Origin: Archangium gephyra
GTDB lineage: Bacteria; Myxococcota; Myxococcia; Myxococcales; Myxococcaceae
Direction: 5' to 3'
DNA: 64,000 nucleotides
NCBI RefSeq assembly: GCF_001027285.1
Contig: NZ_CP011509.1
Coordinates: forward strand, 7,960,501-8,024,500
Below are positions 40,637 to 43,839 of this stretch, one piece after another; within the stretch, counting starts at the first letter, position 1; each line of letters starts with the position of its first letter. The notes under the pieces are model-generated. The model was given only the letters and a program-made list of their open reading frames with translations, had not been told where the DNA came from and made no database searches. The position numbers and the translations under genes were made by a program.

Positions 40637-41887
40637 TCAGACTCCAGGCAGCGGGAAGGCCTCCCAACCCGGAGGCCACTCCACGCGCTCATAGGTGAAG
40701 TGATGCGGATCGTCCGACGGCCAGGGCGACTCGAGCGGCTCCTCCACCAGCTCGAAGACTCCATGGTCGAAGGGCAACCCCGTGCCGGGCGCGGCGCGGA
40801 CCACGCGCTCGCGCACGCCGCTCTCGGCCAGCCGGAGTGAGCGGTGGTGGCAGTAGGGGTTGTTGCCCCGCCGGTTGAAGAGCACATGCGCCCGTTGCGA
40901 GCACCCTCCCCGGCAGGCCTCGGCGTAGCGGCAGCTCGCGCAGTGGCCCCACAGGTGCGCGATGCCCTCGGGCGTCCCGGCATCGACGTTGAAGGTGAGC
41001 TCGCGCGTCTCCAGGATGTCGGCCAGGGGCTGCTGGCGGATGTTGCCGCCCACGAACTCGGACGGCAGCGTGGGGCACGCCTTGATGCCGCCATCCGCGT
41101 GGATGCCCAGCACGGACAGGCCCGCCTTGCAGCCCGCCCACACCTTGGCCCCGCTGGAAGAGAAGAGGAGGTCGTCGTACGGGCCGAAGTAGCCCACGTC
41201 GTTGCCGGGAACCAACGACAGCCGGGACTCCTCGCGCACACGCAGCGCGACGCGGGCGAGCATCCGGTAGAGGTCCGGCAGCTCCGCGGGCTGCAGCAGC
41301 ATCCACGCGTTGTCCGTCCCGTTGCCCATGGGACCGGTGAGTTGCACCTGCCAGGCGCGGATGCCGGCATCCCTCAGGCGCTCGTACAGCGCCGGCAGCT
41401 CGGGGGCGGACAGGCGGTTGACCTGCGTGTTCGAGCTGAAGGGCAGGCCCACCTCGCGGAAGTGGCCCAGTGTCTCGAAGCAGAAGCGGAACGAGCCCTT
41501 GCGACCACGGATGCGATCATGCGTGGCCTCCAGGCCGTCCACGGAGACGGAGACGTGCGCGATGCCCGCCTCCTTCATCCGCCGCGCCGTCTCGCGCGAG
41601 AGGCCATAGCCTCCCGTCGTCATGGTGCAGAGCATCCCGTGGTCCGTGATGGCCCGCGCGATGTCGAGCCAGTCGGGACGCAGGAACGCCTCGCCGCCCT
41701 CGATGGTCACTTCCTGGATGCCCACCTCGGCGAGCTGGCGCACCAGGTCGAGCGCCTCCTCGCGGGAGAGCTCATTCTTGCGGCTGTCTCCCGCCCGCGA
41801 ACCGCAGTGGCCGCAGGCGAGGTTGCACTTGAGGGTGAGTTCCCACACGGCATAGGCCGTGCGGGTCTGGACGGCGGGCGGGGGCAT
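40637..41887 (-). CDS. Radical SAM/SPASM peptide maturase
   Basis: 416 residues. The radical-SAM cluster motif CxxxCxxC is at C21, C25, C28 within WELTLKCNLACGHCGSRAG. Further conserved parts are VTIEGGEAFLRPDW (the GGE motif), MTTGGYGLS and VSVSVDGLEATHDRIRG. The C-terminal SPASM domain has WAGCKAGLSVLGIHADGGIKACP, then HCASCRYAEACRGGC and NPYCHHR, giving the seven-Cys pattern for two auxiliary 4Fe-4S clusters. SPASM enzymes usually act on ribosomal peptides. The gene for a 58-residue peptide ends 26 bp upstream, in the same direction. There is no RRE-like domain at the short N-terminus. The nearest known group I can suggest is PlpX-type spliceases, an inference from the substrate's YG motif and not proven. 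Confidence 0.9.
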   Translation of the reverse strand: MPPPAVQTRTAYAVWELTLKCNLACGHCGSRAGDSRKNELSREEALDLVRQLAEVGIQEVTIEGGEAFLRPDWLDIARAITDHGMLCTMTTGGYGLSRETARRMKEAGIAHVSVSVDGLEATHDRIRGRKGSFRFCFETLGHFREVGLPFSSNTQVNRLSAPELPALYERLRDAGIRAWQVQLTGPMGNGTDNAWMLLQPAELPDLYRMLARVALRVREESRLSLVPGNDVGYFGPYDDLLFSSSGAKVWAGCKAGLSVLGIHADGGIKACPTLPSEFVGGNIRQQPLADILETRELTFNVDAGTPEGIAHLWGHCASCRYAEACRGGCSQRAHVLFNRRGNNPYCHHRSLRLAESGVRERVVRAAPGTGLPFDHGVFELVEEPLESPWPSDDPHHFTYERVEWPPGWEAFPLPGV

Positions 41888-41913
41888 GAGACGGGAGTGG
41901 GGACCGCGAGGGA

Positions 41914-42090
41914 TCAGCTCAGCTTGTTCTTGATGATGTCTTCATCCGGGGGCGGCAGGCCGTAGTCGGCGCTGCCTCCGCGGATCTGATCGAGCGCCTT
42001 CTCGTCCAGCTCGAGCACCTGGCGGGTGCGCTCGTTCTGACGATCAATGACCTGCGTGCGCGGAAACTTCTTCTCGACCTTCTTCGTCAT
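41914..42090 (-). CDS. Putative RiPP precursor peptide
   Basis: 58 residues. The leader-like part is charged (KK, EKK, RQNER) and ends LELDEKALDQIRGG with Gly38-Gly39, a classic double-glycine cleavage site preceded by the usual L...L..I spacing. The putative core is SADYGLPPPDED plus a basic end (IIKNKLS), with a single Tyr43-Gly44. AAGGA lies six bases before the ATG. It lies 26 bp ahead of the radical SAM/SPASM gene and shares its strand, so the two should be one transcript. No export or peptidase gene was found nearby, so a distant C39-type transporter would be needed. It is too short for routine gene lists, but the ribosome-binding site, GG leader and partner enzyme all agree. Confidence 0.8.
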   Translation of the reverse strand: MTKKVEKKFPRTQVIDRQNERTRQVLELDEKALDQIRGGSADYGLPPPDEDIIKNKLS

Positions 42091-42231: not shown

Positions 42232-43839
42232 TCAATCCCAGCGATCCAGCGTGTAGGTCGCGACGGAGCCCTTGCTCGTCACGCGAAGCCCCACGTTCCA
42301 GGAGGAATCCGCGGAGGGGATGACCATGAGGCCGCTGGCGAGCGGCTCCCCCTCGGGAACCACCAACTGGCGGCTGCGTGAGAACGCCTCGATGGTCGCG
42401 CGAATCCCATGCAGGTCGCTTCGCAGGTGCTCGGGAAACAGCGACAGGCTGCTGTTCCGGCTGTCGCGCGAGCCCTTCAGGATGAAGAAGACACCCTGCC
42501 CCTGCTGCGGGAAACGATCGCCGAACCAGGTGTTGGGCTTCATCGTCAGCCCGAGGACCTCCACGTAACCCGGCGTCAGGCCCCAACTGCTCGCGGTGCT
42601 CGGGTTCTGGTAGAAGTACCAGGTGACCGCGTTGCGCTGCTCCGGCGAGTCCCACTGGATGAGGGGCGGCGCGTCGGGATGGACCGCCGTGATCAGTGCC
42701 GAGAACGCCGAGCTGCTGGAAGGAACCAGCAACTCCATCTTCTCGGCCGTGGGCAGCACGGTGTCGCGGAACTTGATCCACGTCAGCGTCTTGGTGGGCA
42801 GTTTGAGGTCCGTGGCCCGAGCCTCCTCCTTGGACTTGAGATGCCCGAAGACACTCCCACCCTTCTCGGGCTTGTCCGTCCTCGGCTTCCAGGTGAGCGG
42901 CACATCCGCGAGCGTGGCGAAGCGGCGCTCCAACGCGGGGGCGAGCCCCAGCTTCGCGATCGCCTCCTCCGCCTGCTGGATGTTCCCCGCGGACGGCGCC
43001 GCCTGTGGGCGCTGGTACTGGAGCGGGTGCATCTTGTCATCGAACCGCTTCTTGACCGTCTCGAAGGGCAGGCCCGCCGCGAGGTCCTCCAGCAGCGTGC
43101 CGACCATCGAGCTGCGCGGCGTGCAGAAGCCCGCGGGCGCCGAGGCCACTGCCTTCCAGATCAGATTGCGGCCCTGGGGCGTCTTGCGCTCGCGCTGGCG
43201 GGCGATGAGCCACTCGACTACGCCGATGAACTTCTCGGAGCGCGTGAGCGCCTCCGCCTGAAGGACGACCCGGGCCTGCTCCAGAAGCTCCGCCTTGAAC
43301 TCGTCGAGCGCCACGTTCAAGCAGCGGTGGTTCTCCCGATGCTCGGCCATCTTCTGGCTGGCACTCAGGAGGCCCGGCTTGAAGACGCGGGCCTGGGGAA
43401 CGCGCACGGCCAGGTGCTTCCAGACGCCCGTCTCGGGGTTGCCCCAGACAGGCTCGGACGAGAGGAACACGCCGTTGACGTGAGCCTTCTCGACCATCCC
43501 CCGCAGCCGCTGCACGGCGGCGAGGTTCTCCTCGGAGGCCAGATGCTCGAGCCAGAAGGGGCTGCCCTGATGACCCGTCTCGTCGAGGGTCACCAGATGG
43601 CCGAAGCGCTCGATGAACTGACGGCAGCTGTTGCAGTTCTGCTGCTGGCGGAGCTCCTCGGGGAAGGAGGCGAGGTAGGCCTCCCAGAGACCGGCGGCAT
43701 TCGTGGTGAACAGCTGCTGGTGGGCGACGTGCTCCTCGAAGCCCGCCTGGAGGCGGCCCAGATAGCCGTGGTAGTCAGACCCGTCACGGGTACCCACCTG
43801 CTGAGACGGCGAGCTGGCCTTCAGGTCACTGTTGCTCAT
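42232..43839 (-). CDS. Conserved protein of unknown function with CxxC motif
   Basis: 535 residues, no signal peptide and no membrane segment. N-terminal region with QNCNSCRQFIERFG, a CxxC that could bind metal. The middle has a helical stretch with GFCTPRSSMVGTLLEDL and MHPLQYQRPQAAPSAGNIQQAE, a block that I associate with uncharacterised proteins of phages and actinobacteria. The C-terminal half is beta-rich and ends VATYTLDRWD. ATG preceded by AGGA nine bases upstream. It is on the same strand as, and 141 bp upstream of, the peptide/maturase pair, so it might belong to that locus, but there is no functional evidence. I could not assign it to a named family. Confidence 0.8.
   Translation of the reverse strand: MSNSDLKASSPSQQVGTRDGSDYHGYLGRLQAGFEEHVAHQQLFTTNAAGLWEAYLASFPEELRQQQNCNSCRQFIERFGHLVTLDETGHQGSPFWLEHLASEENLAAVQRLRGMVEKAHVNGVFLSSEPVWGNPETGVWKHLAVRVPQARVFKPGLLSASQKMAEHRENHRCLNVALDEFKAELLEQARVVLQAEALTRSEKFIGVVEWLIARQRERKTPQGRNLIWKAVASAPAGFCTPRSSMVGTLLEDLAAGLPFETVKKRFDDKMHPLQYQRPQAAPSAGNIQQAEEAIAKLGLAPALERRFATLADVPLTWKPRTDKPEKGGSVFGHLKSKEEARATDLKLPTKTLTWIKFRDTVLPTAEKMELLVPSSSSAFSALITAVHPDAPPLIQWDSPEQRNAVTWYFYQNPSTASSWGLTPGYVEVLGLTMKPNTWFGDRFPQQGQGVFFILKGSRDSRNSSLSLFPEHLRSDLHGIRATIEAFSRSRQLVVPEGEPLASGLMVIPSADSSWNVGLRVTSKGSVATYTLDRWD

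Follow-up and report, generated by a model that had tools for sequence, protein, structure and literature searches.

A two-gene cassette of Archangium gephyra with a short double-Gly peptide and a predicted radical SAM splicease

The locus, its peptide and its conservation

The window, i.e., the whole stretch of 64,000 nucleotides of Archangium gephyra DNA considered here, carries two adjacent genes on the minus strand, the peptide ORF being followed after 26 nt by the ORF of an enzyme. The precursor peptide gene (41914..42090) encodes 58 amino acids, MTKKVEKKFPRTQVIDRQNERTRQVLELDEKALDQIRGGSADYGLPPPDEDIIKNKLS, and its assignment is based on the ORF, an AAAGGA ribosome-binding site upstream of the ATG, seven database homologues and alignment A2; a small gene with a good ribosome-binding site, as the first-pass annotation had reported, is indeed what is found. 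The enzyme gene (40637..41887) encodes a radical SAM/SPASM maturase of 416 amino acids, predicted to be a splicease from its TIGR04103 match, its Pfam matches (Radical_SAM and SPASM) and its position in a tree; no clear ribosome-binding site was seen upstream of its start. The spacing, the common strand and the cysteine motifs noted at first pass were all seen as described: Cys 21, 25 and 28 form the CxxxCxxC motif, Cys 253, 271, 316, 319, 325, 329 and 346 are the seven SPASM cysteines, and all ten cluster cysteines are invariant in an alignment of 14 sequences.

In the peptide, LDQIRGG is followed by SADYGLPPP. The leader region, as read from the sequence, comprises residues 1-39, from KKFPR to LDQIRGG (41974..42090, minus strand), and contains a helix predicted with low confidence, for which the hhalign results are suggestive only. 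The double-Gly boundary delimits the predicted core, residues 40-58, SADYGLPPPDEDIIKNKLS, which with its stop codon occupies 41914..41973, minus strand; within it lies the predicted splice site Asp42-Tyr43-Gly44, of XYG type (41956..41967, flanking base positions included, same strand). In alignment A2, A-x-YGLPPP is conserved and Tyr43-Gly44 is invariant (10 of 10 rows); past PPP, the tail differs in length and sequence. The larger set of 19 distinct window-type peptides, made of 12 loci (the window's included) and seven database proteins, qualifies the expectation of an invariant Tyr43-Gly44 pair: Tyr is kept in 19 of 19, but Gly only in 17, the two exceptions being Tyr-Ala. These are L075 and L076, two of the 12 loci of this type, with the reading RYALPPP; each is a second copy in a Cystobacter-type genome, where a copy with IYGLPPP is present as well. 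After the Tyr-Gly position, LP occurs in 18 peptides and IP in one, and the residue before Tyr is variable (Lys in six, Arg in six, Asp in four, Ile in three).

A simple count of motif presence was dropped as proof, because 15 of the 30 control loci with distant radical SAM enzymes also satisfied a loose xYG...P criterion and motif presence alone therefore proves little; the nearby xYG...P ORFs at these control loci (L009-L039) may reflect chance or further splicease-like systems.

As for conservation, the Archangium violaceum orthologue locus L001 (97%) matches the window in one block of 1543 aligned positions with 93% identity, which spans both genes and about 80 nt upstream, and stops 10 nt short of the end of the enzyme gene; no other match occurs within 9 kb at E 1e-10, and the flanks differ. 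The paralogue L149, together with L002 and L046, is 80-82% identical to the window across both genes, and since the matches are confined to the two genes at all four loci, the two-gene cassette is the inherited unit. Between the window and L001, six of the 51 compared peptide codons changed, four of them synonymously. At each of the 12 clade loci, a window-type peptide frame adjoins an enzyme frame free of stops, and seven database peptides, spread over several databases, match the window's peptide with E-values from 4e-25 to 6e-16; the proposed check, that the peptide be conserved beside the maturase in relatives, thus had a positive outcome. Together with the kept Tyr and the enzyme family, this conservation supports the earlier idea of a two-gene RiPP system. 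In a family-level search, an enzyme relative with at least 57% identity was present in 14 of 96 genomes. A further cassette lies in the window's own genome at G000:C1:223463-224701 (83%), and its core is SARYGLPPPIEISLES; elsewhere in that genome, G000:C1:2396439-2396588 is 72% identical to enzyme residues 220-270 and is maybe the remnant of a third copy.

Family and relatives of the maturase

Regarding its family, the enzyme had TIGR04103 as the best of 82 NCBIfam matches, with 634.6 bits and an E-value of 5e-191, a score that misses the cut-off of 725; the second match was TIGR03913, the GDL-motif maturases, with 344.2 bits, far under the cut-off of 591.75. TIGR04103 is presumably the same family as IPR026482. 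PMC11002830 places PlpX in IPR026482; by a name search, Pleurocapsa PlpX was not among the 120 of 1146 matches listed for the Hydrococcus query. An anaerobic sulfatase maturase was rejected as a candidate, no sulfatase-maturase family being among the best 25 of the 82 NCBIfam matches, and the suggested placement of the maturase came out in favor of TIGR04103; triceptide enzyme families were equally absent from these best 25. A further candidate, an RRE fused at the enzyme N-terminus, was rejected because the matches to the family profile and to the radical SAM profile already start at residue 8 or 16, which leaves no room for it. The structural model has a mean pLDDT of 76.4, and its fold resembles those of anSME, SkfB, PqqE and SuiB.

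A quick tree with 115 rows places the enzymes of the window's type in one clade (support 100), which joins L053, an enzyme whose precursor has a fused helix (support 88); both belong to a group of 46 rows (86) that holds separate-helix and fused-helix systems and is set apart from the distant families (100). Several forks have no clear branching order, and the fused-helix enzymes do not form a single clade. Near-copies (L045, L057, L074, L093, L095-L098, L141-L144, L149) and fragments or other matches (L038, L042-L044, L127-L129, L132-L139) were left out of the tree and of the peptide-residue and motif counts, which include seven of the eight fused-helix loci, L003 and its copy L077 being out; the tree includes L094, a copy of L004.

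The enzyme is 60-66% identical to cyanobacterial TIGR04103 enzymes, some of which have YGLPP precursors. Within this phylum, 28 of 386 genomes have a TIGR04103 match at 1e-60, 20 of them over the cut-off, and 22 loci were chosen at a score of at least 721 bits, namely 21 over the cut-off plus L004 at 721.3 bits; L123-L129 and L131, from the same search, are outside this count. An xYG...P ORF lies within 1.5 kb at 21 of the 22 loci, in most cases a short precursor with an LYGV, MYGV or YGLPP core, and at L115 no xYG precursor was found within that distance. The Pfam Nif11 domain was present in all four cyanobacterial precursors tested. At L122, the enzyme match contains three stop codons.

The PlpY-like helix, separate and fused

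All 22 chosen cyanobacterial loci have, directly after the enzyme, a separate ORF of 55-97 amino acids with an LPRxxW helix and a consensus of about LLPRSAWxSQxxYLRxxFRAKKALDRIE. PMC12710340 describes a PlpY smaller than the RRE fold would require, and we take this ORF as PlpY, matched by description and not by sequence; the PlpY-like model was likewise built from these PlpY-like ORFs, and not from PlpY itself. Searched genome-wide, the model found stand-alone ORFs in four of four cyanobacteria (E 8.4e-17 to 2.3e-22); in the window's genome the same search found no stand-alone PlpY (best E 1.39), and no match in five genomes carrying the window's type was better than E 0.75. No PlpY-like ORF was recognized by the helix pattern at L123, L124 and L131 (cyanobacterial phylum, 606-635 bits), and in the tree group of the window the pattern was not matched at L006, L007, L123 and L124.

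The PRxxW helix occurs fused into the xYG precursors of eight myxobacterial loci: FPRASWKD in L003, FPRTTWED in L005, FPRTAWAD in L052, LPRDRWAN in L053, LPRRAWKD in L054, FPRANWKD in both L055 and L056, and LPRSGWAN in L140. These precursors are open frames of 182-467 codons in which the helix stands ahead of 3 to 10 xYG sites, with GG between the helix and the first xYG in four of the eight. Their leaders scored 35.3 against the PlpY-like profile, a value reached in none of 200 column shuffles (maximum 16.6), and in two of the genomes, G571 and G043, the best PlpY-like model match genome-wide fell inside the precursor frame (E 0.012 and 0.016). At the sequence level, a PlpY-like helix acting in cis in these sister precursors is thus a well supported prediction. 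The precursors of L054, L055, L056, L140 and L124 have 5 to 10 xYG sites each, with linkers that are mostly proline-rich.

As for the window's leader, it starts with MTKKVEKKFPRTQV, its helix is predicted at residues 11-37 with low confidence (mean pLDDT 61.5), and the stretch KKFPRTQV is without the Trp of the PRxxW helix. A leader profile from 16 of the 19 window-type peptides (L076, P0001 and P0002 left out) was compared with the fused leaders, and 0 of 300 and 1 of 120 shuffles scored as high; against the combined profile of PlpY-like ORFs and fused leaders it was 2 of 300, and against the PlpY-like ORFs directly 10 of 120, which is not significant. The hhalign probability for the helix link was 0.6-6% (3-6% against the fused leaders and the combined profile), a search of the window's own genome with the fused-leader model did not find the window's peptide at E 10, and the PlpY helix was not detected in the peptide by HMM directly. 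Of 1091 ORFs of 50-70 amino acids in the loci analyzed, 17 contain the bare motif [FL]PR[STN], true precursors among them. The window's leader is therefore suggestive of a degenerate copy of the PlpY-like helix and, given the weak hhalign values, the non-significant direct comparison and the failed model search, the cis-helix reading of the peptide is graded as likely and not higher.

No transporter, peptidase or RRE was matched by Pfam in the 10 neighboring ORFs scanned, which are part of the window's ORFs, and the eight C39 matches of the genome all fall outside the window; five of these are strong, the nearest about 166 kb away. The earlier remark that such genes are missing nearby holds for these ORFs and for C39, and what it called unusual now has a likely explanation, in that a PlpY-like helix surviving in the leader would account for the lack of an RRE. 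Upstream of the cassette and on the same strand, a 535-amino acid ORF (42232-43839) has no Pfam match at E 1.

Regarding the leader type, Pfam and NCBIfam gave no match at E 1 of the peptide to a Nif11 or nitrile-hydratase-like leader. Double-Gly leaders have hydrophobic residues at -4, -7 and -12, and LDQAAGG is the site of the protease PoyH (PMC10885120); the window's leader has Ile36, Leu33 and Leu28 at these positions, and its LDQIRGG is similar to the PoyH site.

Predicted reaction, alternatives and related systems

The closest described counterpart is PlpXY/PlpA of Pleurocapsa sp. PCC 7319, where a SPASM radical SAM enzyme likewise adjoins an XYG precursor (PMC11002830 and PMC10533398). 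MYG and LYG sites are the targets of PlpXY, and a splice tag tested with it contains PIRPLYGLPI (PMC10533398), so that YGLP is shared with DYGLPPP of the window. PlpA-type precursors have Nif11 or nitrile-hydratase-like leaders, and PlpY is separate in that system, whereas the window has a 39-residue double-Gly leader and no separate PlpY found in its genome. The cyanobacterial loci of TIGR04103, "nif11-class peptide radical SAM maturase 3" (L103-L122, L130), have an enzyme 60-63% identical to the window's and YGV or YGLPP cores, but their leaders are Nif11 in the four tested and the PlpY-like ORF follows the enzyme. The myxobacterial fused-helix systems have an enzyme 57-63% identical to the window's and, as predicted with low confidence for the window, a helix before the xYG, but their precursors are multi-repeat and keep the Trp, while the window's peptide has one xYG site and lacks this Trp in its leader. 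The reaction class is already known, with 27 other characterized and 939 predicted splicease systems cited in PMC10533398; the window's system departs from it in having a short double-Gly leader, only one splice site and no separate partner. The cis-helix idea itself may already be in print.

The cassette is probably a spliceotide system, whose enzyme would be a tyramine-excising splicease acting on Asp42-Tyr43-Gly44 and guided by a leader helix that docks in cis; splicease chemistry as such is likely for an enzyme of this family placement beside a conserved xYG(L/I)PP core. In the proposed sequence of events, the leader helix (FPRTQV...RTRQVLELDE) would dock the precursor on the enzyme, taking in cis the role of the separate cyanobacterial PlpY-like protein; the enzyme would excise the tyramine unit of Tyr43 from the peptide backbone, with the ends rejoined, and a double-Gly peptidase encoded elsewhere would then free a core of about 19 residues. 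The calculated mass of the predicted core is 2071.047 Da unspliced and 1935.979 Da when spliced, a difference of 135.068 Da. The product might be a ketoamide protease inhibitor with its specificity set by the residue before Tyr (P1), i.e., Asp here and Arg in the same-genome paralogue; we infer this role and the P1 assignment by analogy, spliced residues being reported to confer protease inhibition in other spliceotides (PMC10373908).

Of the options offered at first pass for the Tyr-Gly pair, a PlpX-type splicease is well supported as a prediction, with TIGR04103 as the best family, Tyr in 19 of 19 peptides and Gly in 17. It is unlikely that Tyr43 is instead modified without excision, e.g., through a Tyr-centered crosslink or a cyclophane of the kind found in triceptide/XyeA-type RiPPs. 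The SPASM fold is common to many peptide maturases, and in NCBIfam the peptide matched XyeA alone (12.5 bits with a cut-off of 33, E 0.13), but this match, far under the cut-off, covers leader residues 14-39 only and leaves the core outside; moreover, the enzyme matches TIGR04103 and TIGR03913 best, the position before Tyr varies among Asp, Lys, Arg and Ile, and Gly is largely kept after Tyr, which a side-chain crosslink does not need.

Divergence from PlpX chemistry to a related but distinct Tyr reaction (partial cleavage, decarboxylation or epimerization), with the Tyr-Ala relatives further steps away, is rather unlikely; the score under the TIGR04103 cut-off, the two Tyr-Ala loci and the lack of a separate PlpY would fit it, and the identity of 60-66% to cyanobacterial enzymes, some with YGLPP precursors, and the retention of all ten cluster cysteines speak against it. 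Very improbable is a pseudo-cassette or a non-RiPP role, with the small ORF incidental or the pair decaying: exporter, peptidase and regulator are not linked among the scanned neighbors and the enzyme is without a clear ribosome-binding site, yet the peptide frame recurs in every clade locus beside stop-free enzyme frames, the codon changes relative to L001 are mostly synonymous, the conserved block is bounded by the two genes, and homologues occur across several databases.

The spliceotide reading can be extended, tentatively, to a minimal self-guided splicease, in which PlpY would have been absorbed into the leader, so that the 58-residue peptide combines activator, double-Gly site and one splice site, and in which the products would be short alpha-ketoamide protease inhibitors built on the fixed scaffold SA-X-YG-LPPP, where X is an exchangeable P1 residue (Asp in the window, Arg at G000:C1:223463). 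If true, backbone splicing would be achieved with one enzyme and one short peptide, whereas the prototype uses two proteins and a long-leader precursor, and the system would be useful for placing ketoamide residues, bioorthogonal or inhibitory, in proteins. The series from separate PlpY through fused helix to short degenerate leader would then depict a RiPP recognition partner merging with its substrate, and the X-variable scaffold would predict protease targets directly.

In relatives with 45-50% identity (L060, L070, L086, L088, L090, L091, L092, L100 and L125), the upstream short proteins have, by eye, a zinc-ribbon-like start; ACYG closes a lipobox-like stretch in those of L060, L086, L088, L100 and L125, and YG directly after the Cys to be lipidated points to a possible family of spliced lipoproteins. 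At L058, L059, L061 and L078 (49-53% identity), the upstream proteins have two MYG(I/V)(F/V)xRD...helix repeats and resemble protein-type splicease substrates. Zinc-ribbon-like proteins, with domains assigned by eye, are also found in a planctomycete (L008:7160-7543), with MYGP three times and a C-terminal hydrophobic stretch, and downstream in the cyanobacterial locus L004, with VYGAP/IYGSP ahead of an FHA-like part. Finally, in the single genome of Plesiocystis pacifica (G098), TIGR04103 is matched five times with an E-value of 1e-40 or better.
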